Source: Hoylesella buccalis ATCC 35310 (GTDB taxonomy: Bacteria; Bacteroidota; Bacteroidia; Bacteroidales; Bacteroidaceae). Taken from it: 64,000 nucleotides of DNA. The stretch spans positions 2,356,001 through 2,420,000 of the forward strand of contig NZ_CP102287.1 of NCBI RefSeq assembly GCF_025151385.1, written 5' to 3'. The translations under genes were made by a program, and so were the position numbers. The notes below the pieces were generated by a model. That model made no database searches, was not told the origin of the DNA, and worked only from the letters and a program-made list of their open reading frames with translations. Shown here piece by piece: positions 32,932 through 60,968 of the stretch (its first letter is position 1; every line of letters starts with the position of its first letter).

Positions 32932-32939
32932 TATTTTTG
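32932..32939 (+). promoter_or_regulatory. -7 promoter element of the LacI-family gene
   Basis: TATTTTTG matches TAnnTTTG and lies 35 bases before ATG 32975. The upstream stretch is very AT-rich and contains an ATCGAT core (32918-32923) that could belong to an operator. Confidence 0.5.
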
Positions 32940-32974
32940 CAAAAGTATAATTACCACCTAAATCGTTATAGCTA

Positions 32975-34009
32975 ATGCCACTGATTAAGAAAGTATCGAT
33001 CAAAGATATTGCAGAGGCTGCGGGCGTTTCCACGACCCTGGTTTCGTTCGTACTCAACGGAAAAGCTGAGGAATACCGCATCAACGCTGACACGGCGAAA
33101 CGCATCATGGATACGGCCGAGAGCATGCGCTATCGACCCAACATTGTGGCACAGAGCCTGCGCGGTGGGCGTTCGCGTGTCGTCGGTATCGTATTACCAG
33201 ACATATCCAACCCTTTCTTCTCTTCTTTGGCACGTCTGTTTGAAGACATGTCTGCCAATTTTGGCTACACTGTCTTTTTCGGTAGTTCAGACGAACGTCC
33301 AGACCGCATGCGGAAAACAGTTGGAAACCTAATCAACCGCGGCGTGGACGGTCTGATTGTAGCCCCCTGTGAAGATACGGAAAGCTACCTTGTCAACGTG
33401 GCCAAAAATGATGTCCCGTTGGTACTCATAGACCGCTACTTCCCTGATACAGACATTAGTTATGTGGGATTGAACAATTACAAAGCTACCTACGACGCAA
33501 CCAACTATCTGCTCAATTCAGGCTACCAGAGGCCAGCGTTTATTGCCTACGACCTAAACCTGATCCACATGAAAGAACGTACACGTGGATACTGCGAAAG
33601 TATGAAGAACGCAGGGAAGGAATCGGTGAGCAAAGTGTTCTATCTACAACAAAAAGTTGTAGTAGACCAGGCTAACGAACTGATGAAACGCGTGTTATCA
33701 GCAGGTTTCGACTCACTTATGTTCGCCACAAACCTCATTTCACTTTCGTGCCTGTATGCCATTCGGACACTCAACGAAAATGAAACGAGTAAGATAGGAC
33801 TGGTGGGGTTCGACGGCAACCCAGTATTCGACTTTTATGAGCGACCTATAGCCTATGTTAAACAACCCATGGATCAACTGGTGAAATACACGCTAGAGGC
33901 GCTAATGGATAAGATTAACGGAAAAGAGGCACCGTCCATGTTGATTGATGGAAAACTCGCTGTAACAGGTGGCAAAGGATTGCCTCATGCAGAAGACGTT
34001 ATAACGTAA
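32975..34009 (+). CDS. LacI-family transcriptional regulator
   Basis: A sugar-responsive DNA-binding regulator of 344 residues. The N-terminal helix-turn-helix is VSIKDIAEAAGVSTTLVSFV with the hinge helix region RPNIVAQSLRGGRS. The periplasmic-binding-protein-like effector domain starts VVGIVLPDISNPFF and includes DGLIVAPCEDTES and VGFDGNPVF. It is the first gene of the D-arabinan-type locus, 85 bases before the isomerase gene, and is the only regulator in it, so it probably controls the locus in response to D-arabinose or a related sugar (inference). Most Bacteroidota loci of this kind use hybrid two-component or ECF/anti-sigma regulators instead. Confidence 0.93.
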   Translation: MPLIKKVSIKDIAEAAGVSTTLVSFVLNGKAEEYRINADTAKRIMDTAESMRYRPNIVAQSLRGGRSRVVGIVLPDISNPFFSSLARLFEDMSANFGYTVFFGSSDERPDRMRKTVGNLINRGVDGLIVAPCEDTESYLVNVAKNDVPLVLIDRYFPDTDISYVGLNNYKATYDATNYLLNSGYQRPAFIAYDLNLIHMKERTRGYCESMKNAGKESVSKVFYLQQKVVVDQANELMKRVLSAGFDSLMFATNLISLSCLYAIRTLNENETSKIGLVGFDGNPVFDFYERPIAYVKQPMDQLVKYTLEALMDKINGKEAPSMLIDGKLAVTGGKGLPHAEDVIT

Positions 34010-34094
34010 ACCAAATAGGAGGTGTCGTTGGATGCAAAACAAAAAACTAAAAGGTTTCAGCTAATATTTAATTACCTAACATAAAAATATAACT

Positions 34095-35882
34095 ATGGGA
34101 AAAACAAGATTGAATAGTGAGAATCCAAAAATTGGAATTCGTCCTATCATTGACGGTCGCCGAGGTGGCATCCGAGAATCATTGGAAGACATGACCATGA
34201 ACATGGCCAAACGAGTGGCCGACCTGTACGCATCGTCATTGCGCTACAGTAACGGTGACCCTGTGGAATGTGTTATTGCAGACACTACCATTGGCGGTGT
34301 GGCAGAAGCAGCACGTGTTGACGAACAATTGAAAAAACAGGGAGTTGGTGTAATTTTATCGGTTTCTCCCTGCTGGTGCTATGGTTTTGAGACCATCAAC
34401 ATGGACGGGGATTTGCCAAGAGCCATTTGGGGCTTCAATGGTACAGAACGGCCAGGAGCTGTTTACCTTGCAGCGGCACTAGCCGTTCACAATCAGAAAG
34501 GTCTGCCTACATTCGGCATCTACGGTCGTGACGTACAGGATGTGGATAGCGAGGAGATTCCCGAAGATGTGAAAGAAAAGTTGCTGCGTTTCGCAAAGGC
34601 AGGTTTGGCAGTTGCCACCATGCGCGGAAAAGCATACTTATCCATCGGAAGCGTGTCAATGGGTATCGGTGGCTCTATTCCCAACCCAGATTTCTTCCAG
34701 GATTATCTCGGCATGCGCAACGAATATGTCGATGCCAGCGAAATTGAACGACGTATCAAACTCGGCATCTACGACCACGAGGAATTTGACAAAGCCATGG
34801 CTTGGACCGAGAAGTATTGCAAAACTAACGAAGGAAAGGATCACAACCCCAAACACCTTATCTATTCACGGGAAGAAAAAGATGCAGTTTGGGAATATGT
34901 TGTCAAGATGACCATGATTTTCCGTGACCTGATGATTGGTAACCCCAAGTTGGCTGAAATGGGATTCAAAGAAGAGTCCAACGGTCACTACGCTTTGGTG
35001 GGTGGATTCCAAGGACAGAGACAATGGACGGACTTCAAGCCAGACGGTGATTTTTCAGAAACCATCTTGAATAGTTCTTTCGACTGGAATGGTATTCGTG
35101 AGGCCTTTACGTTCGCTACCGAAAATGACACGCTGAATGGTGTTTCAATGCTGTTCAACAAGCTATTGAGCAACCGCGCACAGATCTTTGCGGACGTCAG
35201 GACATACTGGAGTCCCGCTGCCTACGAGCGCGTGACGGGCCAGAAGTTGGAAGGCGATGCAGCCAACGGATTCATCCACCTGATCAATTCCGGCTCTTGC
35301 ACACTCGACGGTTCTGGAAGACAAACAGAAAACGGCAAGCCTGCCATGAAACCTTTCTGGGAAATCCAGGAAAAAGAAGCTGAGGCATGCCTCCAAGCTA
35401 CAACATGGTATCCATCAAACCGTGACTATATGCGGGGTGGCGGTTTTTCTGCACAGTTCCAAACCAAAGGTGGAATGCCGCTCACTATGTGCCGTCTGAA
35501 CCTGATTAAAGGTCAGGGACCTGTTTTACAGATAGCCGAGGGATGGAGTGTGGAATTAAACGACAAATCCTTTGCCGCCATCAACGAGCGTACTGACGCC
35601 ATTTGGCCATCTACCTTCTTCGCTCCACGCCTGACAGGCAAGGGATACTTTAAAGATGTATACTCCGTCATGAATAATTGGGGAGCTAACCATGGAGCCA
35701 TCAGCTACGGACACATCGGTGCCGACCTCATTACATTGGCGTCGATGCTGCGCATCCCCGTATGCATGCACAATGTTCCCGAAGAACAGATTTTCCGACC
35801 CAGTACTTGGACTGCATTTGGTGAAGACATGGAAGGCAGCGACTTCCGTGCATGCAAAAACTTCGGACCCTTATACAAATAA
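34095..35882 (+). CDS. fucI: L-fucose/D-arabinose isomerase (FucI)
   Basis: A Mn2+-dependent aldose-ketose isomerase; the E. coli enzyme converts L-fucose to L-fuculose and also D-arabinose to D-ribulose. The 595-residue product aligns along the whole family, with [28 protein letters not shown], and metal/catalytic residues Glu343 (TEND), Asp367 (FADVRTYW) and His533 (WGANHGAIS), matching E. coli Glu337, Asp361 and His528. No fuculokinase or fuculose-phosphate aldolase gene is present nearby; instead a ribulokinase-like gene lies in the same locus. D-arabinose is therefore the favoured substrate here (inference). It is cytoplasmic and probably shares a transcript with the LacI gene. Confidence 0.95.
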
Positions 35883-35939: not shown

Positions 35940-37154
35940 ATGATGAAAAAACACATATTGCTGGCGTGCATGATCCTTACAGGATTAACAGCATGCAATG
36001 AACAAAAAGAAATAAAGATGGGAAGCTATGCATACGATGCCCAGTTCTTAAAAGATCACGGCATCAAATACGTGGAGTTAAAATCAAAAGATGGAAGTGC
36101 AAAAGTAATGGTCGTTCCCTCTTGGCAAGGCCGTGTGGTAACCACGTCTGCTGCTGGTGATGAAGGCAACAGTTACGGTTGGATCAACTACCGTTTCATT
36201 GAGGCTGGGAAACAAAGCGACCAGTTCAACCCTGTGGGTGGTGAAGAACGCTTCTGGCTGGGTCCTGAAGGCGGACCATACTCCCTGTATTTTGCGAATG
36301 GCAAAGAGCAGGTTTATGACAACTGGAAAGTTCCTGCCGTCATCGACACCGAAACCTTTGACGTCGTAGAGAGCAATGATACGGTCATTCAGTTCAAGAA
36401 AAGTACGTCGGTCAAGAATGCTTCTGGGGCTGTTTTTGACCTAGACATCAACCGAAAAGTTTCGCTGTTATCCAAAACATCAATCGAACAACGGTTGGGT
36501 ATTACGTTTCCGACTGATGCCAAACTTGTAGCATACGAGAGTCTGAATAAGATTACCAATACCGGCAAGGAAGCATGGACGAAGAAGAATGGATTGATAT
36601 CCATCTGGATGTTAAGTCACTTCAATCCAACCCCAACAACAACGGTATTCATTCCATACCATGAAAATGCCGAAGGCAAGATTGTCAACGATGAATATTT
36701 TGGTAAGATTCCGGCCGACCGTTTGAAAACACAAGATGGCATACTCTATTTTAAAATAGACGGCAAGTTGCGCTCGAAGCTGGGCATTCCCCCGATGCGC
36801 TCAAAGGGTTTGTGCTGCAGTTACGACTCAGAAAAGAAAGTGCTGACCATCTTGCGTTGCAACATGCCAGAAAAGCCAGGAGCCTATCTCAACGGACAGT
36901 GGGGAAAACAAGACGACCCCTTTGCTGGAGACATGCTGAATGCTTATAACGACGGTCCTGTAGAAGATGGTTCTATCATGGGGCCCTTCTACGAAATTGA
37001 GACCTCATCGCCTGGTGCAGAACTGGCTGTGAACGAATCGCTTCTTCACAAGCAGGAAACCTTCCACATCCAAGCAGAAGAAGACATCCTTAACCCGATT
37101 GTCGAAAAGCTCTTTGGTGTCAATCTGGAAACCATCAAAAGTCAATTTCAATAA
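35940..37154 (+). CDS. DUF6786-like periplasmic lipoprotein
   Basis: From ATG 35940 the product has 404 residues and begins MMKKHILLACMILTGLTACN, a lipoprotein signal with lipobox TAC. An ATG one codon later is equally possible; the longer frame from 35904 is rejected because it crosses the hairpin. The body is a predicted large beta-sandwich (MVVPSWQGRVVTTSAAGDEG, FNPVGGEERFWLGPEGGPYS) that I place with DUF6786 proteins, whose fold resembles aldose mutarotases. Lying between an aldose isomerase and the SusCD genes, a mutarotase or sugar-binding role is plausible but unproven. Confidence in the gene is high, in the family moderate. Confidence 0.8.
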   Translation: MMKKHILLACMILTGLTACNEQKEIKMGSYAYDAQFLKDHGIKYVELKSKDGSAKVMVVPSWQGRVVTTSAAGDEGNSYGWINYRFIEAGKQSDQFNPVGGEERFWLGPEGGPYSLYFANGKEQVYDNWKVPAVIDTETFDVVESNDTVIQFKKSTSVKNASGAVFDLDINRKVSLLSKTSIEQRLGITFPTDAKLVAYESLNKITNTGKEAWTKKNGLISIWMLSHFNPTPTTTVFIPYHENAEGKIVNDEYFGKIPADRLKTQDGILYFKIDGKLRSKLGIPPMRSKGLCCSYDSEKKVLTILRCNMPEKPGAYLNGQWGKQDDPFAGDMLNAYNDGPVEDGSIMGPFYEIETSSPGAELAVNESLLHKQETFHIQAEEDILNPIVEKLFGVNLETIKSQFQ

Positions 37155-37163
37155 CTATGTTAT

Positions 37164-37194
37164 AGAAGGGCTCTTCCGGACAAAGAGTCCTTCT
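37164..37194 (+). terminator. Intercistronic hairpin before the first SusC gene
   Basis: AGAAGGGCTCTT (37164-37175) pairs with AAGAGTCCTTCT (37183-37194) with one G-U wobble. It is followed by CTAAAAAG, not a T-run. It sits between the DUF6786-like gene and susC. Confidence 0.55.
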
Positions 37195-37232
37195 CTAAAA
37201 AGCTTCATCAAATCAAATAATACCAACACAAT

Positions 37233-40200
37233 ATGAGATATATAAAAAGAAGCGGAGTCATTGCAATTCTTATTTTGACAGGTTTGTTCCTGCCAAACAG
37301 TATGACAGTGGGGGCTACCGGCACACTAGATGGTTCTCAACCAGGAAATGCGAGCCAGCAGACGAACCAACAACAAAAATTTGTTAGCGGAAACGTAACA
37401 GATGCAGAAACACAAGAACCTCTCATTGGCGTTAGCATCAAAATAAAAGGAACGAACATCGCTGCAATCACTGACGCAAACGGGCATTACCAGATACAAC
37501 TTCGAACAAGCCAAGACATCTTGATCTTCTCCTATATCGGAAAAAAAACAGTTGAGATACGCACCAATGGCAGGGCAAGGTTGGATGTAGTGATGGAGAA
37601 TGATGAAAATACACTCTCTGATGTCGTAATTTACACGGGATATCTAACCCAGAAGAAAGCCGATTTGACGGGGTCTGTAGCCATTGCCAATCAAGCTGAT
37701 ATTGCTAGAGGAAACTCAGCGAATGCCATGAAAGGACTTCAGGGGAAAATGGCTGGCGTACAGATTACGACCAATGGTGGCAATCCTGCTGAAAGTGTCA
37801 ACATCCAGATCAGAGGACTTTCGTCACTGTCGGGAGGTATCAAGCCCCTCATCGTCTTGGACGGAATGCCAACAGAGGGGCTAAACCTTCGTGACATTAA
37901 TGCAGGTGACATTGAGTCTATTCAAGTATTAAAAGATGCAGCTTCAGCCAGCATCTATGGGGCAAGAGCTTCTGGCGGTGTTGTTCTGATTCAAACCAAG
38001 AAAGGCAAGCAAGGCAAAACAACGATAGAATATCATGGAAGTGTTTCTTCCAACACCGTCATCAACAAACCAAAGCTGATGAATGCTGTAGAATATGGTA
38101 CAGCCGAATTCAGGGCACAGGCCTACGACGAGAAAGTGTACGGAACCGCCATGTCGTTACCTACAACTTATGACTTTCTATGGCACAGAGATGCGAACGG
38201 TTATGCCTGTCTCGATGCTGCTACACCGGCAGAATGGCTCACGCCCAACAAGAAAGTAGCCGGCGCAAATACGGACTGGATGAATGAAATTTTTAGGACT
38301 GCAGTTTCAACAAACCATCAACTGACCATTTCATCAGGTAACGACAAGAGTCGCAGCTTGTTCTCATTGGGTTATTTTAATAACCAGGGAACACAAATTC
38401 ATACATTCTTCAAGAAATATTCTATCAGAGCCAACTCTGAATATAACTTATTGCAAAACCGTTTGAAGATTGGAGAAAATCTGGCGGTGTCGTATCTACA
38501 GTACCGAGGCCAAAACGAGACACGCTGGGCTATGATCAATCCCCCTGCAGTCCCAGTCTATGACAAAGACGGAAACTGGGCTGGAGCTGCTGGCTTTGAC
38601 GATTTCAGCAATCCCGTTCGCTTATTGGAAATGAACAAAAACAACGTCAACAACTACGTCAAAATTATCGGAAACATTTTCCTTGACCTCAATCTATGGA
38701 AAGGCTTGTCTGCCAGGACTCAGTTTGGCATAGACTATGGTAACGCTTACAGCAGGACCATTGATGGTATCTGGTCGGAGACAGGTGGAAGAAGTAGCAA
38801 TGGCGAGAACTATGTGGGCAATAGCCAGTCGCATCCACTCAACTATGTGTGGACCAACACGCTGACATATAACTATGCCAACAATCAACACGATTTGACA
38901 GTTCTTTTAGGACAGGAAAGCACAAGATACGTACAAGAGGGATTTTCGGCTCGCCGAGAAGGCGTTTATCTAGAGGACCGTGACTTTGCGCATATCGGTG
39001 TGACAACTGGCAAAAAATATTCACTAGGAAGTTCGGCAGACGAATATACCTACCTATCTTATTTTGGTAAAATCAACTACGTCTATGCAGGCAAATATCT
39101 CGCTTCTGCCACTATTCGTCGTGACGGTTCTTCCTTGTTCGGTGCGTCAAATCGTTGGGGAACCTTCCCAGCATTCTCTTTGGGATGGCGACTGAAAGAC
39201 GAAAAGTTCATGGAAAACGCAACGTTTGTTTCTAACCTGAAACTTCGTGCCAGTTATGGTACCAATGGTAGCGTGCAAGGACTTCCTAGAGGATATACGA
39301 CAACACCGTTCACACCCGACTATTTTGATACCTCTTATCCAATCAAAGGAAATGAGAACGGACATTTGGAATCGGGTTACAGGAGACTTTGGTTAGGTAA
39401 TCCTGACTTAAAATGGGAAACCACTACGCAGACTGATCTGGGCATTGATTTCGGGTTTTTCAATCAAAGGTTAACGGGGTCGCTGGAATACTATTTCAAG
39501 AAAACGAAGGATATCTTGGTTCAGACTCCCTATATTGCAGCAATGGGAGAAGGCGGTGAGCCATGGATTAACGGTGCCAGCATGAACAACCAAGGAATAG
39601 AAATGGAGCTCACGTTCAGAAACAAACAAGGTTCTGCTTTCGAATACGAGATTTCTGCCAACATAGGCACCTATAAAACAAAGCTCACAAGCCTTCCATC
39701 AAATGTTATCAACAAGTATCCTGGTGACGGCATGAGAGATTTCGTATTGGACAAGACTCCCAACATCTTCTACGGTATGGTAGCCGATGGTATATTCAAG
39801 ACACAGGAAGAAGTTGACAGACATGCCGAACAACCAGGAAAAGCCATTGGTAGAATTAGATACAAGGATTTAGATGGTGATGGTGTCATCAACGAACTCT
39901 ATGACAGAACCTATATCGGCATTGCAGACCCAGACTTCTTCGGTGGGCTGAATGTTGACCTGCGTTACCACGGCTTTGACCTGAACGTGTTCTTCCAAGG
40001 CGTATTCGGTAACATGGTAGACAACGTTTGGAAACGAGAGAGCGACCTTTGGAATATCTCAGTACCTAAGGGAAAGAACCATCCTGTAAGGCTACTGGAC
40101 GCATGGTCATTCGACAATCCAGACTCAGATATACCAGCCATCACCAACCAAACGGTAAACAACGAGAACAGATTTTCTACCTATTACGTTGAAAATGGGT

Positions 40201-40424
40201 CGTATCTCAAATTAAGGAATATAGAAATGGGATATACAATACCTCGTCATGCATTACAAAAACTTTTCGTCAAAGAACTGAGACTTTATGCCAATGCACG
40301 GAATGTCTTTACATTGAAGAAATCTTGGGGAAATGATCGTTATACCAGCTTTGACCCAGAGATGCCTGGCTATGGCTATCTACAGCCATTTTCTCTTACA
40401 TTTGGCATTAACTTAAAATTCTAA
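37233..40424 (+). CDS. SusC-like TonB-dependent glycan transporter (first pair)
   Basis: A 1063-residue outer-membrane importer. It has a signal peptide, an N-terminal carboxypeptidase-regulatory-like domain (VSGNVTDAETQEPLIGVSIK), a short TonB-box region (DVVIYTGYLTQKK), a plug with MAGVQITTNGGNPAESVNIQ, LDGMPTEGLNL and the signature DIESIQVLKDAASASIYGAR, and a 22-strand barrel ending in YLQPFSLTFGINLKF. The SusD gene follows nine bases after the stop. The pair should form a pedal-bin complex moving oligosaccharides, here probably D-arabinan fragments, into the periplasm. Confidence 0.95.
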   Translation: MRYIKRSGVIAILILTGLFLPNSMTVGATGTLDGSQPGNASQQTNQQQKFVSGNVTDAETQEPLIGVSIKIKGTNIAAITDANGHYQIQLRTSQDILIFSYIGKKTVEIRTNGRARLDVVMENDENTLSDVVIYTGYLTQKKADLTGSVAIANQADIARGNSANAMKGLQGKMAGVQITTNGGNPAESVNIQIRGLSSLSGGIKPLIVLDGMPTEGLNLRDINAGDIESIQVLKDAASASIYGARASGGVVLIQTKKGKQGKTTIEYHGSVSSNTVINKPKLMNAVEYGTAEFRAQAYDEKVYGTAMSLPTTYDFLWHRDANGYACLDAATPAEWLTPNKKVAGANTDWMNEIFRTAVSTNHQLTISSGNDKSRSLFSLGYFNNQGTQIHTFFKKYSIRANSEYNLLQNRLKIGENLAVSYLQYRGQNETRWAMINPPAVPVYDKDGNWAGAAGFDDFSNPVRLLEMNKNNVNNYVKIIGNIFLDLNLWKGLSARTQFGIDYGNAYSRTIDGIWSETGGRSSNGENYVGNSQSHPLNYVWTNTLTYNYANNQHDLTVLLGQESTRYVQEGFSARREGVYLEDRDFAHIGVTTGKKYSLGSSADEYTYLSYFGKINYVYAGKYLASATIRRDGSSLFGASNRWGTFPAFSLGWRLKDEKFMENATFVSNLKLRASYGTNGSVQGLPRGYTTTPFTPDYFDTSYPIKGNENGHLESGYRRLWLGNPDLKWETTTQTDLGIDFGFFNQRLTGSLEYYFKKTKDILVQTPYIAAMGEGGEPWINGASMNNQGIEMELTFRNKQGSAFEYEISANIGTYKTKLTSLPSNVINKYPGDGMRDFVLDKTPNIFYGMVADGIFKTQEEVDRHAEQPGKAIGRIRYKDLDGDGVINELYDRTYIGIADPDFFGGLNVDLRYHGFDLNVFFQGVFGNMVDNVWKRESDLWNISVPKGKNHPVRLLDAWSFDNPDSDIPAITNQTVNNENRFSTYYVENGSYLKLRNIEMGYTIPRHALQKLFVKELRLYANARNVFTLKKSWGNDRYTSFDPEMPGYGYLQPFSLTFGINLKF

Positions 40425-42258: not shown

Positions 42259-42672
42259 ATGAAAGATAAAATAATAAAATATCTGTGTGCCTTGTTTGCA
42301 ATCTTACTGATGGCGAGTTGTTATGACAGGGATATCATTGACAGTAAAGAATTTAATCACTTTATGCCACCTGTTGAAAATGTAACCCTTCAAAATGCAG
42401 ACAACAGTGTAACGCTCTCATGGACTGTCCCTAAAGATATTCCAGAAGACATTGTAAGACCAGCAAGAATTGAAATACAAGTAGTTGAAAATGGTATCTA
42501 TAGACAAAAGGTCACTTTGAGTGAAACGGATCCGAGCCATGCTGACATCAAAGTTGAAGCCGGAAAACCATACCGCTTCATCATTAAAATGGTCAGTTCT
42601 ATCAAAAATGAAAATAGAGTGAAAGGAGAATCAGATCAAATCTATTCAAAAGGTGTCATTGTATCGAGATAA
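42259..42672 (+). CDS. DUF4945-like small lipoprotein
   Basis: From ATG 42259 the product has 137 residues: lipoprotein signal with lipobox MASC, then YDRDIIDSKEFNHFMPPVEN and one fibronectin-III-like beta domain (VTLSWTVPKDIPEDIV, PYRFIIKMVSS). The longer frame from 42220 overlaps the SusD end and hides the signal, so I reject it. Small lipoproteins of this type follow SusD genes in many Bacteroidota loci and probably act as accessory surface binders. Family name held with moderate confidence. Confidence 0.8.
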   Translation: MKDKIIKYLCALFAILLMASCYDRDIIDSKEFNHFMPPVENVTLQNADNSVTLSWTVPKDIPEDIVRPARIEIQVVENGIYRQKVTLSETDPSHADIKVEAGKPYRFIIKMVSSIKNENRVKGESDQIYSKGVIVSR

Positions 42673-47215: not shown

Positions 47216-47219
47216 TAAA

Positions 47220-51524: not shown

Positions 51525-51569
51525 TCGGAAGCTACTATCAACAAGCAATTACAAATGCCAACATTAACG

Positions 51570-51593
51570 CTCCACAGCTAAGAGAAAGTGGAG
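51570..51593 (+). terminator. Short intercistronic hairpin before the second SusC gene
   Basis: CTCCAC (51570-51575) pairs with GTGGAG (51588-51593) across a 12-base loop. It is weak, without a T-run, and lies where the hairpin before the first susC also lies. Confidence 0.35.
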
Positions 51594-51627
51594 ATAATAA
51601 TCTATTTATAATAAATTAAACTGTCAT

Positions 51628-54600
51628 ATGCGACATTTAAATCTAAATCATTATTGCAAGCGGCTGTTCGTGTTACTCCTTGGCTTCTTCATGGTGCAAG
51701 GAATAGCGTTAGCACAGAAGCCACGACTTGTCAGTGGTCGAGTCCTTGATACAAAAGGAGAGACCCTCATTGGTGTCACTGTAGCAGAAGAAGGAAATAC
51801 AACCAACTCTGTCGTGACCGATGTCACAGGTACTTACCGTATCAGCCTCACCACGGCAAAACCTATTTTGAAATTCAACTACATTGGCTTCAAGGAGAAG
51901 ACCGTCAATGTAGGAGCAGACAACGTCATTGATGTTGCCTTGGAAGAAGACATTTCCTCTTTGGAAGAAGTAGTCGTAGTAGGCTATGGTACCCAGAAGA
52001 AAGCGTCTGTTGTCGGTTCCATTGCCAACATTCAGCCCGAGAAACTAAACATGATGCCCAGCCGTTCACTCAGCAACAGTCTGGCCGGCTTAAGTCCTGG
52101 CGTAATAGCAGTACAGCGCAGCGGTGACCCTTGGTACAATAACTCAGATTTCTGGATTAGAGGTATCAGTAGTTTTGCTGGCAACACGCGTCCTCTTGTT
52201 CTGATTGATGGTATCGAACGCTCACTCAATGACATTGATCCTGATGAAGTAGCGTCGTTCTCCATTTTGAAAGACGCTGCTGCCAGTGCTGTTTACGGTG
52301 TACGTGGTGCCAATGGTGTGATCATGATTGAAACCAAACGCGGTGAGATAGGCAAACCGCAAGTTAACTTACGATTTGAACACTCATTCACACAGCCCGT
52401 CAAACTACCAGAATATGTAGGGAGCGTGAAATACCTCGAACTAATGAACGAGATGTATCGAGATGAAGGAAAGGCTCCAATGGTATCCGAAGCTGTTTTG
52501 GAAAACTACAGAAATCGCACGGACCCAGAGTTGTATCCAGACGTTAATTGGTGGGATACCATTGCAAAAGACTACGCAGACAACACACGTGCCACATTGA
52601 ATATTTCGGGCGGATCCAAACTTTTACGCTATGCATTGGTTGCAGGCTACTTCAATGAAAACGGTATTCTGGAGCGTGACAAGAGACAGGCCTGGGACTC
52701 TTCTTTGAAAGTAAACCGATACACCGTCCGCTCAAATGTCGACATTAACGTCACGAACACAACAGTGGTACGGGTCAACATCGGTGGATTCCTACAAACT
52801 CGTAATGCACCTCCCGGAGACATCACTGATTTTGAGATGTTCTATCAAGCCATGCGCATTCCACCGTATGTACACCCTGCCATCTATGCTGACGGACGCA
52901 TTCCACGTGTACAATACAAGCAGAATCCCTGGGCCTGGGCCACACAAAGAGGATTCGCAAAACTAAACCATAGTAAAATTGAAGCACTCACCTCAGTTGA
53001 ACAGGATTTGAAAGCTATCACCCCAGGATTGAGTGCAAGATTGACCTTCTCTTTCGACAAATTCGCAAGCAACTCTGTGGACAGATCAAAGAACCCCGAC
53101 TACTACAATCCTGCTTCCAGTAGAGATTATAATGGAAACATCGTGACAAGCATCTTATCAAATGGCGAGCAATTCTTAGGCTATTCAAAAAAGGCCGACT
53201 GGGGCAACCAAAGTACATACTTGGAAGGCATGCTTAATTATAACAGAACATTCAACAATAAACACGCTGTCAACCTCATGGCTCTGTACAACCAAAAAAA
53301 TTACGATGATGGTTCTTTTCTACCATTCAGGACACAGGGTTTTGCAGGACGAGCTTCTTATACATTCGAAGATCGCTATATTGCAGAATTCAACTTTGGA
53401 TACAACGGCTCTGAGAACTTCGCCCCCGGTAAGCGATTCGGATTCTTCCCGGCACTCGCAACTGGCTGGATTGTCTCACAGGAACCCTGGATGGAATCTC
53501 TTTCCAAGACGATATCCCTCTTGAAATTAAGAGCCAGTTGGGGTAAGGCTGGAAATAGCGATATCAGCGGCCGACGCTTTGCTTACATCTCAACAATAGA
53601 AAACACAGGTTATTACTATTATGGAACAGATGGGCAGTTCCATCGTTTGGGCAGAGCAGAAGGTGATATTGGTGTGCCGGATTTGACTTGGGAAAAAGTG
53701 ACAAAAACCAATCTTGGTATAGACCTCGGTCTTTTCAACAACAGCATATCTTTAAGCTTCGACGTGTTCAAGGAATGGCGCAAGGATATCTTCATGAAAC
53801 GAAAGAACATCCCTGCATCTGCTGGATTCAACCGTGCGGTGTGGGCAAACTTTGGTAAGGTAGAAAACAGTGGTATTGATTGTTCCCTGAACATTAACCA
53901 CCGGTTCAACAGAGACTTTCAACTGACGGCGTTGGCTAACTTCACCTATGCACACAACAAAATTACCGAATATGACGAGCCAGAGGCCATGAAAGGTACT
54001 TACCGTGCCAGGACAGGAAAACCTGTTGGCCAATTGTTCGGTCTTGTGGCAGAACGTCTGTTTGAAGAAAGCGATTTTGATGAGAACGGAAAGCTGAAAG
54101 AAGGTATTCCTACACAGAAATTCAGTGCCGAGAGTTCGCTCGGACCTGGAGACATCAAATATGTAGACCAGAATGGTGATGGTGAGATTACTGCCATTGA
54201 TCAGACTGCGATTGGCGGAACCATTGACCCACAAATCGTATACGGTTTTGGAGCTACACTCAGATATAAACAATTCGATTTCGGATGCTTCTTTTCTGGC
54301 GTTGGTAAACAATATCGTATTTTGGGGGGAGAGACCTGGTTGCCGGCTTCTTCCATCGGTGCGGGCAACATCTGGTCAAATATAGACGACAGATGGACCA
54401 AGAGTAATCCCAGACAGGATGTATTCTGGCCGCGCATGAACGAGTTGACCATAGACAACAACAAGCAAGCATCAACATGGTGGTTGAAAAATATGAGTTT
54501 TCTCCGCCTAAAGAATGTTGAATTGGGTTATACTCTCCCACGCCATTGGAGTGAAAAGATTGCCATGAAGGATTGCCGCATCTTCTTAAGAGGAAGCAAC

Positions 54601-54717
54601 CTTCTTACCTTCTCTAGTTTTAAGATGTGGGATCCAGAAGTAGGAACCACCGACGGTTTGAAGTATCCAATGATGAAAGCCGTATCTGTGGGCATCACCT
54701 TTAACTTTAACAATTAA
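51628..54717 (+). CDS. SusC-like TonB-dependent glycan transporter (second pair)
   Basis: A 1029-residue outer-membrane importer, clearly diverged from the first copy. It has a signal peptide (ending GIALAQK), a carboxypeptidase-like domain (VSGRVLDTKGETLIGVTV), a TonB-box region (EEVVVVGYGTQKKASVVGS), a plug with IRGISSFAGNTRPLVLIDG, the signature VASFSILKDAAASAVYGVRG, and a barrel ending MMKAVSVGITFNFNN. Its SusD partner starts 18 bases after the stop. Two SusCD pairs in one locus suggest separate uptake of differently sized or decorated fragments of the same glycan. Confidence 0.95.
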   Translation: MRHLNLNHYCKRLFVLLLGFFMVQGIALAQKPRLVSGRVLDTKGETLIGVTVAEEGNTTNSVVTDVTGTYRISLTTAKPILKFNYIGFKEKTVNVGADNVIDVALEEDISSLEEVVVVGYGTQKKASVVGSIANIQPEKLNMMPSRSLSNSLAGLSPGVIAVQRSGDPWYNNSDFWIRGISSFAGNTRPLVLIDGIERSLNDIDPDEVASFSILKDAAASAVYGVRGANGVIMIETKRGEIGKPQVNLRFEHSFTQPVKLPEYVGSVKYLELMNEMYRDEGKAPMVSEAVLENYRNRTDPELYPDVNWWDTIAKDYADNTRATLNISGGSKLLRYALVAGYFNENGILERDKRQAWDSSLKVNRYTVRSNVDINVTNTTVVRVNIGGFLQTRNAPPGDITDFEMFYQAMRIPPYVHPAIYADGRIPRVQYKQNPWAWATQRGFAKLNHSKIEALTSVEQDLKAITPGLSARLTFSFDKFASNSVDRSKNPDYYNPASSRDYNGNIVTSILSNGEQFLGYSKKADWGNQSTYLEGMLNYNRTFNNKHAVNLMALYNQKNYDDGSFLPFRTQGFAGRASYTFEDRYIAEFNFGYNGSENFAPGKRFGFFPALATGWIVSQEPWMESLSKTISLLKLRASWGKAGNSDISGRRFAYISTIENTGYYYYGTDGQFHRLGRAEGDIGVPDLTWEKVTKTNLGIDLGLFNNSISLSFDVFKEWRKDIFMKRKNIPASAGFNRAVWANFGKVENSGIDCSLNINHRFNRDFQLTALANFTYAHNKITEYDEPEAMKGTYRARTGKPVGQLFGLVAERLFEESDFDENGKLKEGIPTQKFSAESSLGPGDIKYVDQNGDGEITAIDQTAIGGTIDPQIVYGFGATLRYKQFDFGCFFSGVGKQYRILGGETWLPASSIGAGNIWSNIDDRWTKSNPRQDVFWPRMNELTIDNNKQASTWWLKNMSFLRLKNVELGYTLPRHWSEKIAMKDCRIFLRGSNLLTFSSFKMWDPEVGTTDGLKYPMMKAVSVGITFNFNN

Positions 54718-54735
54718 TCAAACAGAATAGTTACT

Positions 54736-56658
54736 ATGAATATAAAGAAATATATTTTCAAGGCTTCTGTTGTTTTGGTTTGTCTGTTGGCAACGTCAAG
54801 CTGTGATTATCTTGACAAGCAACCTGACGATCAATTAACAATGGATATGATTTTCTCGGACAAGATCCGCACAGAAGATTGGCTGGCCAGTGTTTACTCA
54901 TCGATACCAAGCCCTATATGGGGGTACATGAAAGATCAAGGCTACAACATCATGGGCGATGACATTGTGATTCCAAATGAATGGACTCCCTATGGGTGGG
55001 CCAATGTGTATGCGTTTACAACAGGAAACTGGAGTCCTACTTCAGGTTGGAATGCCAATTATTGGGTAGAACTGCCAAAACGTATCAGAACAGCTTTGCA
55101 GTTCCTGGAAAATGTACGTGTCATCCCCTCAGATGGATTGACAGAGAACTATGTCAACCAATTGAAGTACGAGGCGCGTTTTCTCATTGCCTATTACTAC
55201 TCGTTAATGGTTGAGACCTATGGTGCTGTCCCTTTCAATCCAGACAAACTCTATTCTATATACTCACCTTCTGAGGAAATGATGACCGAACAAACCCCAG
55301 CTGACGTCATTGTAGATTGGATAGACAAAGAACTTTTAGAGGTTTCTAAACATCTACCCGCCGTTTACGAAAGTGACCAAGATTGGGGACGCGCCACGTC
55401 TGTGATGGCTCTGGCCATGCGCGCCAAGACTTTACTGTTTGCAGCTAGTCCTCTTTTCAATGGAAATACAGACTATGCTGACTGGAAAAATAAGAGTGGT
55501 GAGAATTTAATTAACCAAACTTACTCTTCCGAAAAATGGCAGCGTGCGGCTCAGGCTTTCAAAGAAATGATTGACTTAGCAGAAGCAAGCGGATATGGCT
55601 TGTATTACGAATACAACGCCGGTGGCTCTATTGATCCTTTCATGTCATACTACAATATGTCACTCAAACGATTCTCGGACGGTAACAAAGAGATTGTATT
55701 TGGGCGCCCAGAGAATAAAGACCTCAATAGTTGGCAGGCTCACCATCTGCCCAAAGGCGTTCGAGGCAATGCTGCCATGAATATTACTCAAGAGCTGGTC
55801 GATGCTTTCTTCATGGCGAATGGAGAAAAACCAATCCTAGGTTACCACGAGGACGGATCTCCCATTATTAACGAGAAATCAGGATATACAGAAAGGGGCT
55901 TCTCGGCTAAAGATGAGATGCGCCGTACCAAATGGCCAGGTGGAGGGCCGGTAAACAAGTTCAAGGCTGATACAGGCGAAAGTCCTGTGACCTTGGTTGG
56001 TACTTACAATATGTACTGCAACCGCGAACCTCGATTCTATGTATCCGTCATTTTCAACCACGAATGGATGGGAGTGATCAACCGTCAGGTAAACAACTTG
56101 ATGGGCGCAGGTCAGGATGCAGCAAATAGTTTCGATTCTCCTTGGACAGGATATAATATCAGGAAACAAATTCCTTTGGATATTTACCCAAAAGAAAACA
56201 AGCACAGATACCAGCCAGGAATTCTCTATCGTATGGCTGATGCTTATCTCAGCTACGCTGAATGCCTAAACGAAACCCAAGGCAAACCTTCGGCAGAAGT
56301 ATACAAGTATGTTAATCTCATCAGAGAACGGGCTGGTTTGCCAGGCTTGAAAGAAGGACTTTCTAAGGAGCAGATGCGAGAGGCTATCCAGCACGAGCGC
56401 CGCATAGAGTTCAACTGTGAAGGCGTACGCATTGAAGACTTGCGTCGATGGAAATTAGCGGAAAAATATTTGAATGCACCGGTTTACGGAATGAACCGAA
56501 CGGGATCTGTAGCAAGTGACGACCCCAACAATCCCAAGGCATACTATAAACGCTGGTATTGGAAACCACGTATCTTCACCAAGAAGATGTACATGATGCC
56601 TGTTCCACAGACACAAATGGACATCAATACTAACTTAGTTCAAGCCCCTGGTTATTAA
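54736..56658 (+). CDS. SusD-like surface glycan-binding lipoprotein (second pair)
   Basis: The 640-residue partner of the preceding SusC. Lipoprotein signal with lipobox TSSC, then DYLDKQPDDQLTMDMIF. SusD features include YEARFLIAYYYSLMVETYG, RMADAYLSYAECLNETQG, and the C-terminal ERRIEFNCEGVRIEDLRRWK plus MYMMPVPQTQMDINTN. Low similarity to the first SusD argues for two separately recruited pairs rather than a recent duplication. Next gene follows after 18 bases. Confidence 0.95.
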   Translation: MNIKKYIFKASVVLVCLLATSSCDYLDKQPDDQLTMDMIFSDKIRTEDWLASVYSSIPSPIWGYMKDQGYNIMGDDIVIPNEWTPYGWANVYAFTTGNWSPTSGWNANYWVELPKRIRTALQFLENVRVIPSDGLTENYVNQLKYEARFLIAYYYSLMVETYGAVPFNPDKLYSIYSPSEEMMTEQTPADVIVDWIDKELLEVSKHLPAVYESDQDWGRATSVMALAMRAKTLLFAASPLFNGNTDYADWKNKSGENLINQTYSSEKWQRAAQAFKEMIDLAEASGYGLYYEYNAGGSIDPFMSYYNMSLKRFSDGNKEIVFGRPENKDLNSWQAHHLPKGVRGNAAMNITQELVDAFFMANGEKPILGYHEDGSPIINEKSGYTERGFSAKDEMRRTKWPGGGPVNKFKADTGESPVTLVGTYNMYCNREPRFYVSVIFNHEWMGVINRQVNNLMGAGQDAANSFDSPWTGYNIRKQIPLDIYPKENKHRYQPGILYRMADAYLSYAECLNETQGKPSAEVYKYVNLIRERAGLPGLKEGLSKEQMREAIQHERRIEFNCEGVRIEDLRRWKLAEKYLNAPVYGMNRTGSVASDDPNNPKAYYKRWYWKPRIFTKKMYMMPVPQTQMDINTNLVQAPGY

Positions 56659-56676
56659 TCTTTTAGAAAAACAGTT

Positions 56677-58377
56677 ATGAAACATTTATATTATCATTTG
56701 ACAACAATCTGTTTGCTATTGATAGCAGTCTTCAGCTCTTGCTCTGACAGCGAGGACGTAAGGCCAAATGTAGACAGATTTCTCCGACTGCAACACACAT
56801 CGATAACGATCAATGTCGGAGAGGAATATTTGCTCAAAGCATCCGTAGATACATTAGCAGGAAAAAACTATCAACTCGTATGGTCTGTGGGCAACAGCAG
56901 TTTGGCGTCGATAGAAAAAAGCGACCAGCAAATGGGTCTGATCAGAGGCCTTCAGCCTGGAACGACAACCATCAAGGTGGAAACTGACGATCACAAATTG
57001 ATGTATTTTGCAGATTTGACAGTCTTGGAAGGTGCACCCTCCTTAAAACTTTTGACCATTGGAAGTGGCCTTGCCAATCAATCTGCAAACGAAGCCTTGG
57101 TACAGATGGCTAAAGCAGCAGGCCATCCTATGGTGGTATGCAATATCTTTGAAGACAAAGCATCCTTATCCAAACACTTGAGAAACATTGCCAACAATGC
57201 CAATGCGTACGACTACAAACGTATTGACGAAAGGCTCAATGCCAACAATCAACGCAATCAATCACTAAGAGATGTTGTAAACAATGAAAATTGGGATTAC
57301 ATTGCCATTGAAGAAAGTGCCGATTCAGCAGGATTTCAAAAAGGCTACAAGGAGGTTTTGCCAGAGTTGATCAAGCAACTCAAGGAGTGGTCAACAAATC
57401 CAAATTTGAAGATTCTCATTCATCAACCTTGGGCTTACAGCTCTACGGCCACTACTCCGGGATTCAAACAGTTTGATAATGACCAATTGAAGATGTTTAA
57501 CAGCATTGTTACAGCAACCCAATCTGCAACCAATCAAGTCACTCGGATTGTTCCTGTGGGAACTGCTATCCAGAACGCACGAACTACCTATCTGGGAGAA
57601 AGTGTGATTAATGGCGACATTGAGTTAAACGCTACCTCTGGACAATACATTGCTGCCATGACATGGATAGAAGTGTTATTTGGCATTGACGTGAGTGCAT
57701 CTCCTTTGATGATTCCCCAAATGTCTGAATATGTCAATAACCTGTACAAGTTGTCTGCTCACAATGCTATCATTCACAACAAGCAGGTGACAGACATGGT
57801 AGACTTCAAGTCGGCAAACCCATTCATCTTGGATCATCCTATCTATATTGACTTTGGTGAGAAAGCTACTCCATTACCATTCAATAGTTTTATTGATCCG
57901 GAAAAGCCAGTGAGCAACTTGATTGATAAAGCAGGAAATAGCACCTATTTTAACATCGAAGCGACAAGCGCTTTCGGAAAGCTAAACAGAAGAGAAATCT
58001 CTAACACGCTGGGATTCCCTGAAAGTGTATGTCAGGACATGTTCTTCCGTGACGGCAGAAAACCAGGACAGGGAATAGGTTCGTTCAAAGTAAGCAACAT
58101 GAATACCACCAAGAAGTATACCTTTGTTTTCTATGGTGCCATCAATGATAAGAACACAGGTACCCGCTTCAAAGTGAGAGGCGTCAATGAAGGTCAGATG
58201 GACTTGTCTAACGACTACAATAAGGATAAACTGGCCATCATTGAGAACATCCAGCCCAGACAAGATGGTACGGTAGACATCGAACTGACCATGGCACCAT
58301 TCAATACGCAGTGGGGCGGATTCTTCGGTGTTAATGCTATGATTATTGTTCCAGAAGGCTATTCAGGCTCCTACTAA
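56677..58377 (+). CDS. Lipoprotein with Big2-like and degenerate DUF4886 (SGNH-fold) domains
   Basis: The 566-residue product has a lipoprotein signal (FSSC), a Big2-like Ig domain (about 35-118; SSLASIEKSD, LQPGTTTIKVETDD), a DUF4886 SGNH-hydrolase-like domain (about 122-345) and a C-terminal beta domain. Blocks such as ILIHQPWAY, VPVGTAIQNART and GQYIAAMTWIEVLFG fix the DUF4886 assignment. The catalytic motif IGNSFS is, however, replaced by IGSGLA (Gly131 at the Ser position), and the usual His near DGxHLD is Glu316 in GDIELN. It is therefore probably not an esterase. Its place directly after SusD is where surface glycan-binding proteins are encoded, suggesting a binding role (inference). 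Confidence 0.82.
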   Translation: MKHLYYHLTTICLLLIAVFSSCSDSEDVRPNVDRFLRLQHTSITINVGEEYLLKASVDTLAGKNYQLVWSVGNSSLASIEKSDQQMGLIRGLQPGTTTIKVETDDHKLMYFADLTVLEGAPSLKLLTIGSGLANQSANEALVQMAKAAGHPMVVCNIFEDKASLSKHLRNIANNANAYDYKRIDERLNANNQRNQSLRDVVNNENWDYIAIEESADSAGFQKGYKEVLPELIKQLKEWSTNPNLKILIHQPWAYSSTATTPGFKQFDNDQLKMFNSIVTATQSATNQVTRIVPVGTAIQNARTTYLGESVINGDIELNATSGQYIAAMTWIEVLFGIDVSASPLMIPQMSEYVNNLYKLSAHNAIIHNKQVTDMVDFKSANPFILDHPIYIDFGEKATPLPFNSFIDPEKPVSNLIDKAGNSTYFNIEATSAFGKLNRREISNTLGFPESVCQDMFFRDGRKPGQGIGSFKVSNMNTTKKYTFVFYGAINDKNTGTRFKVRGVNEGQMDLSNDYNKDKLAIIENIQPRQDGTVDIELTMAPFNTQWGGFFGVNAMIIVPEGYSGSY

Positions 58378-58405
58378 ATCTTCATTGATTGGATAGGATT
58401 GGTTG

Positions 58406-58484
58406 CACCGTCGGCAATATTTTGCCACTGATTACGTTCTTGTAACAGCGACAAGCTTATATATGTCGACGGTGTTTTTATTTT
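58406..58484 (+). terminator. Branched hairpin with T-run inside the locus
   Basis: Outer arms CACCGTCG (58406-58413) and CGACGGTG (58467-58474) enclose two smaller hairpins, GGCAA-tatt-TTGCC and CTTGT...ACAAG, and are followed by TTTTTATTTT. The form suggests a terminator or attenuator separating the DUF4886 gene from the second GH172 gene, which may then need read-through or its own promoter. Confidence 0.65.
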
Positions 58485-58518
58485 CCAAAATAACATTATT
58501 GATTTATAATTTCAAAAC

Positions 58519-60447
58519 ATGACTAAATTATTCAAACTATTCAGCCTTGCGTGGCTATTGTTCGCTCCATTGACTGTCTTCTCACAGGAAAAATATCGCT
58601 GGGCGGACGAACTATCCTTGTTAAAAAGCATCGATAAGCTACCGCAATATCGCACAGGATCTTACGTTGAATCCTTCTCCAGCTACGACCGTACCCACGG
58701 AAACGATGATGGATTTGCAGGAACCTATTCGTTTCTTCGCAAAGAGGGCGACAAGCTGGTTATTGCAGAGATGAAAGGACCGGGAGTCATTGACCGCATT
58801 TGGACTCCTACGCCCAATGAGACCATGCTTTATTTCTATTTTGACGGCAACAAGAAACCTGGACTTCAAATAAAATTCTCAGATCTCTTCTCTGGCAAGG
58901 TTTATCCATTTGTCAAGCCTGTCTGCGGAAATGAGGTGGGTGGATATTATTGCTACGTACCCATCACATACAAAAAATCGTGCAAGATAGTATACGACGG
59001 GCCCAAGCTGGAGTTCATTCAGATAGGCTACCGCAACCTGACAACCAAGAAGGTGGAAACCTATAACGGTCAGTTTACACAGCAGGACAAACAACTCTTG
59101 CAAGAGGTTTGCGACCTATGGAATGCCAATGAATACAAAATGAGTCTTTTCACACAAGGTAAATCGTCTGACATCAAGACCATGGAGAAAGAAATTACCC
59201 TCCAGCCAGGCGAAACAGTCAATTGTTTCTCCCTTGACACGCCGGGCCGCATCGTCGGCATGGAGATTGATGGCGGAACAGCCTTAGAGGGTGATAACAA
59301 AGATGTCATCCTCTCAGCTTCATGGGACGGCGAATCCATCGAGGCCATCTACTCACCCTTGCAAGATTTCTTTGGCTACGCCTTTGGACGAGGTGCCATG
59401 CGCAGCTTACTCATGGGTAAGCAAGGTAACAACAACTATTGTTTCCTGCCCATGCCCTTTGACCGTTCGGCTAAGGTGAACTTGATATACAAAAAACGCA
59501 ACGAGTACCAACCTACCATTATCGCAAAGGTCAAAATTCATTACAACCAACAAGGCAGAGCCAAGGATGAAGGAAAGTTCTACAGTGTTTGGAGCCGTCA
59601 AAAGACACCGATTGGAACCTATCACACATTCTTGCATACAAAGGCTAAGGGACATTATGTTGGTACCATCTTGCAGTCACAAGGACTCAGACCTGGCATG
59701 ACCCTCTTCTTCGAAGGTGACGACAGCACCCATGTAGATGGTAAGATGCGCTTGCACGGAACTGGTTCTGAAGACTATTTCAACGGTGGCTGGTATGCAC
59801 TGCTCGACAGGTGGGATCGTGGCATCAGCCTTCCAATTCACGGTTCGCTCGACTATTCGCTGCCCATGGCTCGAACAGGAGGATACCGTTTCCACATCAG
59901 CGACAAGATGTCGTTCGAGAAAGAAATCTATCATGGCATGGAACATGGTGGACAGAATAACGATTTTCCAGTAGACTATATATCGGTGGCCATGTTCTAC
60001 GCAGACCGTCCGCTCACCACGAAGCAAGAGCCGCAAGGTGAACTGCTGAAGGTATATAAACCTACCACTCACATCTATTTCCCGCAGCTCTTCGAGATGA
60101 CCATCGGAGGCGATATGAATATTTCGTCCGACCACGGAACTGTGATGACAACCAACAACCAAGGTGAAACGCGCATCATGCTTTCGCACGTACCAGACGG
60201 TAAATACAAGGTCTTAATCGATTACACTACGTTCCCCGATGGTGCGGATTTCCAAGTGTGGCAACGCCAGAAACAGCTTTCTGACTGGATTTCGGCCAAA
60301 ACTGCTGAACGTGAAGAAAAGAATCGCCTGCATGTGGGTGACATCGATCTGACACAACAAACCAACTCCATCACCTTCCGCGTGAGGAAGAATGGCGGAA
60401 CCAGTAAGTTCGGTCTCAGATTGATTACGCTCGAGCGAGTAAATTAA
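58519..60447 (+). CDS. GH172 (DUF2961) glycosidase, long form
   Basis: A 642-residue secreted enzyme with a signal peptide (cleavage near VFSQE) and the DUF2961 core: RTGSYVESFSSYDRTHGNDD, MKGPGVIDRIWTPTP, GAMRSLLMGKQGNNNYCFLP, KGHYVGTILQSQGL and GTGSEDYFNGGWYALLDRWD with Glu418 at the conserved position. About 140 extra C-terminal residues form another beta-sandwich (HVPDGKYKVLIDYTTFPDGA; NSITFRVRKNGG), perhaps a binding module. It differs enough from the compact GH172 at 50343 to suggest a different linkage or position preference. The GNAT gene follows five bases after its stop. Confidence 0.92.
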   Translation: MTKLFKLFSLAWLLFAPLTVFSQEKYRWADELSLLKSIDKLPQYRTGSYVESFSSYDRTHGNDDGFAGTYSFLRKEGDKLVIAEMKGPGVIDRIWTPTPNETMLYFYFDGNKKPGLQIKFSDLFSGKVYPFVKPVCGNEVGGYYCYVPITYKKSCKIVYDGPKLEFIQIGYRNLTTKKVETYNGQFTQQDKQLLQEVCDLWNANEYKMSLFTQGKSSDIKTMEKEITLQPGETVNCFSLDTPGRIVGMEIDGGTALEGDNKDVILSASWDGESIEAIYSPLQDFFGYAFGRGAMRSLLMGKQGNNNYCFLPMPFDRSAKVNLIYKKRNEYQPTIIAKVKIHYNQQGRAKDEGKFYSVWSRQKTPIGTYHTFLHTKAKGHYVGTILQSQGLRPGMTLFFEGDDSTHVDGKMRLHGTGSEDYFNGGWYALLDRWDRGISLPIHGSLDYSLPMARTGGYRFHISDKMSFEKEIYHGMEHGGQNNDFPVDYISVAMFYADRPLTTKQEPQGELLKVYKPTTHIYFPQLFEMTIGGDMNISSDHGTVMTTNNQGETRIMLSHVPDGKYKVLIDYTTFPDGADFQVWQRQKQLSDWISAKTAEREEKNRLHVGDIDLTQQTNSITFRVRKNGGTSKFGLRLITLERVN

Positions 60448-60452
60448 CAAAC

Positions 60453-60968
60453 ATGCATACCACACAAATTGCATTCCGAAAAGCTACAACCGCAGATTTG
60501 GAAGAGGCGTGGACGCTCTTGGACACAGCTCGCAACCTCATGCTGACCAACGGCAGGAAACAGTGGACAAAGGACTATCCCTCACGAGAACTGATTGAGG
60601 ATGACATCATCGGAGGAGACGCTTACATTCTTACCGTCGATGGAGAGGTAGCCGCATACGCCAAACTTGCCGTGAACGGCGAACCCGAATATTCTCATCT
60701 CGAAGGTTCTTGGCTCAGCGAACAAGACTATGTGGTGATTCACAGGCTTGCCGTTAGCCCCCGTCACCGAGGACATGGATTGTCCAAACGCCTCTTCCAC
60801 GAAGCGGAGAAATGGGCTGCCTCGCAAGGCGTTCACAGCATCAAGGTAGATACCAACTATGACAACGTTGAGATGCTGAACATCCTTCCACACCTGGGCT
60901 ACACCTATTGTGGTCAAATACACTATGGTGCCAAAGGCGACAGAAAGGCTTTTGAGAAACTAATCTGA
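60453..60968 (+). CDS. GNAT-family N-acetyltransferase
   Basis: A 171-residue acyltransferase using acetyl-CoA. The CoA-binding motif A is VIHRLAVSPRHRGHGLSKRL (R/Q-x-x-G-x-G/A form) followed by HEAEKWAASQGVHSIKVDTN; the C-terminal part has NILPHLGYTYCGQIHYG. The acceptor is unknown. The five-base spacing to the GH172 gene means it is transcribed as the last gene of the locus, but a metabolic link to arabinan use is not evident. No signal peptide; cytoplasmic. Confidence 0.9.
   Translation: MHTTQIAFRKATTADLEEAWTLLDTARNLMLTNGRKQWTKDYPSRELIEDDIIGGDAYILTVDGEVAAYAKLAVNGEPEYSHLEGSWLSEQDYVVIHRLAVSPRHRGHGLSKRLFHEAEKWAASQGVHSIKVDTNYDNVEMLNILPHLGYTYCGQIHYGAKGDRKAFEKLI

Follow-up and report, generated by a model that had tools for sequence, protein, structure and literature searches.

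The 64,000-nucleotide window analysed here, positions 2,356,001 to 2,420,000 of contig NZ_CP102287.1 of Hoylesella buccalis ATCC 35310, raises the question of which glycan is the target of a locus of 16 open reading frames (ORFs) at 32975–60968, all of them open and all on the + strand. An initial annotation, made from the sequence alone, had described a candidate D-arabinan utilisation locus in a Prevotella-like genome, with GH183, GH116 and two GH172 enzymes, two SusC/SusD pairs and FucI, FucP-type and ribulokinase genes. Pfam and NCBIfam matches bear out this gene content, and the host belongs to Hoylesella in the Prevotellaceae. Because profile placement, residue markers, the absence of L-fucose and L-arabinose routes from genome searches and a match to a PUL42-type locus agree, the claim of a dedicated D-arabinan system holds, and the locus is assigned with high confidence to the PUL42 type of D-arabinan utilisation locus. 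This confidence attaches to the D-arabinan substrate and not to the donor of the polymer, and the enzyme activities are predicted ones.

PUL42 was identified in Dysgonomonas gadei by proteomics on D-arabinan, in a study that established exo-α-D-arabinofuranosidase activity for DUF2961 (GH172) proteins and endo-D-arabinanase activity for DUF4185 (GH183) proteins (PMC10115798). Structures have been solved for three D-arabinan enzymes, EndoMA1 (GH183), ExoMA2 (GH116) and ExoMA1 (GH172) (PMC10509167), and residues were mapped via alignments to solved enzymes of this kind. Profile searches place the products starting at 42793, 44222, 50343 and 58519 in GH183, GH116, GH172 and GH172, respectively. 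The GH183 lipoprotein (42793–44193; DUF4185, 4.7e-95), a predicted surface endo-D-arabinanase, retains all three essential acids: D165, D183 and E376 correspond to D33, D51 and E243 of EndoMA1, mutants of which have lost nearly all activity (PMC10509167). Moreover, R328, W273 and Y428 match essential or binding residues of EndoMA1, and the six residues checked are intact in all 120 homologues listed (the best 120 of 873). The GH116 protein (44222–47215; DUF608, 6.6e-54), predicted to be a periplasmic exo-β-D-arabinofuranosidase, carries the catalytic pair E563 and D689, equivalent to E431 and D557 of ExoMA2. Its H578 and R615 correspond to H446 and R483 of ExoMA2, markers for β-D-arabinofuranose over β-glucose, and these positions are Asp452 and His507 in the β-glucosidase TxGH116 (PMC10509167).

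The first GH172 enzyme, GH172a (50343–51524; DUF2961, 1.4e-94), is predicted to be a periplasmic exo-α-D-arabinofuranosidase. Its catalytic glutamates E259 and E281 correspond to E233 and E254 of DgGH172c, and its selector residue Asn289, the residue that blocks fructofuranose, corresponds to N253 of ExoMA1. The second, GH172b (58519–60447; DUF2961, 5.7e-54), is the counterpart of DgGH172b and contains one full DUF2961-like region and one partial region, the match to the latter being under the cut-off; both catalytic glutamates are intact, and the protein probably releases D-arabinofuranose in the periplasm. These selector residues bear directly on a fructan or difructose-anhydride locus working through GH172, the type of alternative the initial annotation had itself raised with inulin-type fructans. 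The founder of the family, αFFase1, acts on α-D-fructofuranose (PMC10509167), and the best NCBIfam match of the LacI-family regulator is a fructose-responsive regulator, at half of its cut-off (197.7 against 389.55 bits; no NCBIfam model scores above its cut-off for this gene). However, αFFase1 has Gly299 where GH172a has Asn289, and this small residue of GH172 α-D-fructofuranosidases is also absent from GH172b, which has Tyr426; GH172a aligns with ExoMA1 (8ic8) at 385 bits and with αFFase1 at 149.5; and neither GH183, the GH116 markers nor the FucI/ribulokinase pair fits a fructan. A fructan target is, on this evidence, highly improbable. The only DUF2961 gene found elsewhere in the genome encodes a 1133-residue GH172b-like protein on the – strand (G000:C1, about 3051977–3055378; L120:7978–11379), with DUF2961, FG-GAP repeats and a weak Por-type sorting tail, and adjoins a gene for a 650-residue FG-GAP/SusE-like protein.

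A D-arabinan locus would be expected to feed a D-arabinose route in the cytosol. FucI (34095–35882; NF008220, 1045.9 bits against a cut-off of 775) scores over both NCBIfam fucose-isomerase cut-offs, and its solved relatives include L-fucose isomerases (926 bits) and the D-arabinose isomerase 3a9r (899 bits). The FucP-type sugar:H+ symporter (47220–48665; TIGR00885, 410.5 against 280.4 bits) is predicted to take up D-arabinose, and the FGGY kinase (48662–50308) scores as a ribulokinase (TIGR01234, 603.8 against 583.25 bits). Taken by themselves, the FucI and FucP scores would also suit an L-fucose locus with unusual hydrolases, in which both proteins serve fucose. In the genome as searched (a single contig of 3,307,707 bases, 99.94% complete as given), profile searches found FucI and an FGGY kinase in a single copy each, and these two copies lie within the locus. 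The kinase is far under the fuculokinase cut-off (77.4 against 470.9), fuculose-phosphate aldolase (FucA, TIGR01086) has no match in the genome in a search that was positive in 9 of 14 control genomes including Escherichia coli, and the domain scans name no fucosidase domain in the locus, all of which leaves an L-fucose function with very little probability. L-Arabinose was also considered and rejected: L-arabinose isomerase (AraA) has no profile match in the genome, the same search being positive in 5 of the 14 control genomes. The ribulokinase of E. coli takes D-ribulose, and a ribulose-phosphate epimerase is present in the H. buccalis genome. With a single FucI, a single FGGY kinase and no match to FucA or AraA, D-arabinose and D-ribulose are, from what is known of such enzymes, the sole substrates on which isomerase and kinase can act as a pair, which leaves D-arabinose to D-ribulose-5-phosphate as their predicted route. 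On D-arabinan, no carbohydrate-active protein of D. gadei was more abundant than a predicted fucose isomerase (PMC10115798).

How closely does the locus resemble PUL42 itself? The comparison was made with a cluster of Dysgonomonas sp. UBA7710 (L111–L113) as a stand-in for D. gadei, its genes being taken as open frames of at least 110 residues on one strand. The order there is LacI, a major facilitator superfamily (MFS) transporter, GH172a, GH116, DUF6786, a 698-residue gene, GH172b, FucI, SusC1, SusD1, DUF4945, SusC2, SusD2, a lipoprotein, GH172c, GH183, GH183 and ribulokinase. The run of 15 genes that begins with GH172a and closes with the second GH183 agrees in number and position with D. 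gadei locus tags 02467–02481: GH172a, GH116, GH172b and GH172c fit tags 02467, 02468, 02471 and 02479, and the GH183 pair fits 02480 and 02481. With a 308-residue piece of DgGH172c, the UBA7710 GH172c shares 98% identity. The synteny with Dysgonomonas that the initial annotation had put forward as a check is borne out, 13 of the 16 H. buccalis genes having UBA7710 counterparts at 40% identity or more. Identities are 73% for SusD1 (40434–42242), 72% for SusC1 (37233–40424), 71% for FucI, 66% for GH172a, 61% for GH183 (to both copies), 64% and 46% for GH116 (in two pieces), 60% for SusC2 (51628–54717), 59% for SusD2 (54736–56658), 54% for ribulokinase, 48% over 643 residues for GH172b, 43% for DUF6786, 42% over 176 residues for the DUF4886-type protein, 40% for DUF4945 and 36% for LacI; all four SusC and SusD proteins also have profile matches. 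Together, the features that mark the PUL42 type are present: both SusC/SusD pairs are orthologous, the GH183 active site is intact, a GH172 of the DgGH172a/ExoMA1 type occurs and FucI is accompanied by a pentulose kinase. The two loci differ in that the gene order is rearranged, H. buccalis has one GH183 where UBA7710 has two, the 698-residue gene is missing from H. buccalis, a degenerate DUF4886 domain is inserted in its surface lipoprotein, and a GNAT acetyltransferase is its sole gene without any UBA7710 counterpart. A cluster of Microbacterium arabinogalactanolyticum also combines GH183, GH172 and GH116 with a putative isomerase and kinase, and its enzymes have solved structures and are specific; in this Gram-positive organism there are an ABC (ATP-binding cassette) transporter, no SusC/SusD and exo-enzymes without signal sequence, in contrast to the signal peptides of the H. 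buccalis exo-enzymes (PMC10509167).

Several observations weigh against the D-arabinan assignment. The four GH116 residues occur in 120 of the 120 homologues listed (the best 120 of 2439), one of them from Bacteroides uniformis, so that, judged on these residues, GH116 by itself is not diagnostic of D-arabinan loci. The FucP-type protein scores 271.7 bits with a second fucP model, short of its cut-off of 427, and, at 26% identity, is not the counterpart of the UBA7710 MFS transporter. The locus is without the GH172c of PUL42, an accessory enzyme that was not treated as defining; the selector position of GH172b, Tyr426, is neither Asn nor Gly; and the activity of DgGH172b is weak (PMC10115798). 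Finally, the domain scans name no galactan- or mannan-degrading domain in the locus; of arabinogalactan or lipoarabinomannan, it would therefore digest just the arabinan.

The wider distribution of GH183 was surveyed with the DUF4185 profile (E ≤ 0.001). Among 398 genomes of the GTDB genus, eight had any match, four were above the cut-off and three were near full length, namely the H. buccalis genome itself, Hoylesella saccharolytica (G168) and the metagenome-assembled genome (MAG) SUG2085 (G191); the spread within the genus is patchy. Across the order, 26 of 393 genomes matched, 13 above the cut-off and four near full length. A scan of named genomes gave 55 GH183 loci, divided into close loci (n = 22), whose GH183 reaches 55% identity or more to the H. 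buccalis protein over at least 200 residues, and other loci that are more distant or partial (n = 33). Neighbour counts rest on identity thresholds of our choosing and are lower bounds, since several loci reach contig ends or the 10-kb flank, and two close loci (L033 and L011) are near kin of the H. buccalis locus rather than independent. Beside the close GH183 genes, SusD1 was found in 20 loci, SusC1 in 19, DUF4945 in 18, FucI in 13, DUF6786, GH116 and GH172a in 10 each, GH172b in seven, SusC2 in six, SusD2 and ribulokinase in five each, and the DUF4886-type protein and FucP in four each. The corresponding counts in the other loci were three for FucI and FucP, two for SusC1, SusD1, ribulokinase and DUF6786, one for GH116 and zero for the remaining six genes counted, including GH172a. 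As a GH183 of the same clade recurs beside the same SusC/SusD across Bacteroidota, the grouping of these genes is not due to chance.

Among the 55 loci, from a scan that may omit records of the genome's own, the closest named one is a further ATCC 35310 record (L033); it is collinear, shares 97.7% of its DNA sequence over 21.4 kb and, as compared, ends inside SusC2. Divergence from it peaks at 37293–37892, the 5′ end of susC1, with 87–92% identity as against 94–100% elsewhere in the comparison. The locus of the Prevotellaceae MAG SUG2085 (L011/L068/L069) is collinear but has a divergent FucP–ribulokinase segment: positions 47050–50340 are 67–86% identical to L069, whereas the rest of the compared region (46748–60995) is 86–99% identical, a pattern that is read from the alignment as segment exchange inside the locus. 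H. saccharolytica JCM 17484 (L012, L066 and L067) shares the order FucI, DUF6786, SusC1, SusD1, DUF4945, GH183, GH116 and GH172a; LacI, FucP, ribulokinase, SusC2/SusD2 and GH172b were not seen in the stretches compared, and a 50%-identical ribulokinase-like gene lies elsewhere in that genome. SusC1 of H. saccharolytica (L012) matches in two frames joined near residue 449, which is either a draft error or a real break.

Two proteins of the locus belong to uncharacterised families that accompany such loci. The DUF6786 lipoprotein (35940–37154; 2.2e-158), whose ORF was called from 35904 and probably starts at 35940 to judge from its signal peptide, has a predicted galactose-mutarotase-type fold in agreement with the fold expected of an aldose 1-epimerase, and is proposed on this modelled fold to be a periplasmic D-arabinose mutarotase. 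The lipoprotein at 56677–58377, a predicted surface glycan-binding protein, comprises Big_2, a degenerate SGNH-type DUF4886 domain and a C-terminal region. Its DUF4886 match (2.4e-60) and top fold match (4i8i), together with the GNS and DGxH motifs kept in two relatives, could point to an active esterase that strips acyl groups from arabinan, a function considered because mycobacterial arabinogalactan bears succinate (PMC10115798). However, relative to 4i8i, GNS has become GSG and DGYH has become GDIE, so that the SGNH motifs are lost. GNS and DGxH are catalytic in SGNH esterases. Counterparts in three other loci are without the domain by alignment (L025, L029 and L019; L025 also by Pfam scan), and the predicted model is only middling (pLDDT 74.5, pTM 0.49), for which reason the C-terminal part was given no fold. 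Esterase activity is accordingly judged improbable, and the protein resembles a glycan-binding surface protein with an esterase domain stripped of its catalytic motifs.

Signals read from the sequence, by pattern and by eye, separate two groups of proteins. GH183, SusD1, SusD2, DUF4945, DUF6786 and the DUF4886-type protein have lipoprotein-type signals (the SusD2 lipobox is non-canonical, and the lipobox placement in SusD2 and DUF6786 was judged by eye), and GH116, GH172a and GH172b have plain signal peptides. This division suggests endo-cutting outside the cell and exo-cutting in the periplasm. The small DUF4945 lipoprotein (42259–42672; 7.6e-37), called from 42220 and probably starting near 42259 given its signal peptide, is a probable accessory surface binder. 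In the proposed mechanism, SusD1/DUF4945 and SusD2/DUF4886-type lipoproteins would capture D-arabinan at the cell surface, where the GH183 lipoprotein would make internal cuts; the oligosaccharides would pass into the periplasm through both SusC channels. There GH172a, acting on α-linkages, GH116, acting on β-linkages, and probably GH172b would free D-arabinofuranose, and DUF6786 may speed its conversion to the ring form taken by the FucP-type symporter. In the cytosol, FucI would yield D-ribulose and ribulokinase D-ribulose-5-phosphate, which would enter the pentose phosphate pathway.

Control of the locus would probably lie with the LacI-family regulator (32975–34009), which has LacI (5.6e-11) and periplasmic-binding-like domains; LacI genes also stand at the head of the UBA7710 cluster and of Proteiniphilum/Petrimonas loci. 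It is likely a local sugar sensor, with D-arabinose or D-ribulose as the probable effector. A crude scan, which is weak evidence, found no central-CG LacI operator palindrome that satisfied its criterion in ten intergenic regions. Four intergenic gaps were folded, each against shuffles, and three hold stem-loops better than the shuffles: a 12-bp stem-loop before susC1 (37155–37232; minimum free energy –17.1 kcal/mol, z –4.1), a 13-bp stem-loop in the gap that separates GH183 from the binding genes (42673–42792; –28.9, z –3.2) and, between the DUF4886 gene and GH172b, a long stem-loop with a U-rich run after it (58378–58518; –34.7, z –3.4). In the gap at 51525–51627, folding was no better than in shuffles (z 0.13). 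The three stem-loops may grade expression in steps along the operon. A terminator scan gave 14 matches against 16.6 in shuffles, and a consensus promoter scan 51 sites against 37.1 (standard deviation 5.4); the consensus pattern is ill suited to Bacteroidota and its sites were not used.

At the borders of the locus, the GNAT acetyltransferase (60453–60968; GNAT domain match) is a doubtful member, being found as a neighbour in the compared loci only in SUG2085 (95%), although many of the compared stretches stop short of its position. A GH2 enzyme (30120–32507) lies directly upstream of LacI and was not counted in the locus; it is 98% identical in SUG2085, and no D-arabinan link was seen. DDE transposases are encoded at 5691–6467 and, directly downstream of the locus, at 61102–62274. 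Elsewhere in the window, a stretch of low G+C content (9500–11344; 36–38%) encodes a DpnII-type restriction endonuclease and a D12 adenine methyltransferase, and a likely surface protein (22778–24298) contains five stretches of DUF285 and has leucine-rich-repeat matches.

Where would H. buccalis meet D-arabinan? ATCC 35310 came from human dental plaque (PMC3091885), and the species, called an oral commensal, also occurs in cervicovaginal samples (PMC13296784). D-Arabinan is a cell-wall polymer of mycobacteria and corynebacteria. Corynebacteriales have wall D-arabinan (PMC10509167), a study of dental caries lists Corynebacterium matruchotii among its taxa (PMC6052428), and cross-feeding from oral and gut corynebacteria has already been proposed (PMC10115798). 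Our best guess for the natural source is corynebacterial arabinogalactan in dental plaque. The fuller picture, in which H. buccalis grazes corynebacterial wall arabinan in plaque and the urogenital tract, its new accessories being a dead-esterase binder and a D-arabinose mutarotase in the periplasm, is offered only tentatively. The same enzymes could instead serve a D-arabinofuranose glycan of another kind, such as an O-antigen, pilin or capsule glycan of plaque bacteria, since linkages alone do not identify the donor; two SusC/SusD pairs with an endo-enzyme and an exo-β-enzyme would fit a long, branched, β-capped polymer better than a short motif, and a glycan of this other kind is considered rather unlikely. 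Among the open-access papers listed in literature searches, no link of Hoylesella or Prevotella buccalis to D-arabinan was found; PMC7320173 names the species, in the excerpt only within a species list alongside generic sugars. In the papers covered here, release of D-arabinose from D-arabinan was demonstrated for a single species of Bacteroidota, D. gadei, in a study that screened 14 species and analysed selected supernatants (PMC10115798).

Overall, the system itself is already known, and what is new is its lineage, Hoylesella, and its niche, the human mouth. A culturable human oral species thereby gains a predicted D-arabinan-eating route, a further enzyme set becomes available for dismantling arabinogalactan and lipoarabinomannan, and roles are suggested for DUF6786 and the Big_2/DUF4886 lipoprotein. 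That Prevotellaceae draw food specifically from mycolic-acid actinobacteria becomes a directly testable idea; if true, grazing in plaque would be a specialised glycan food link of one bacterium on another.

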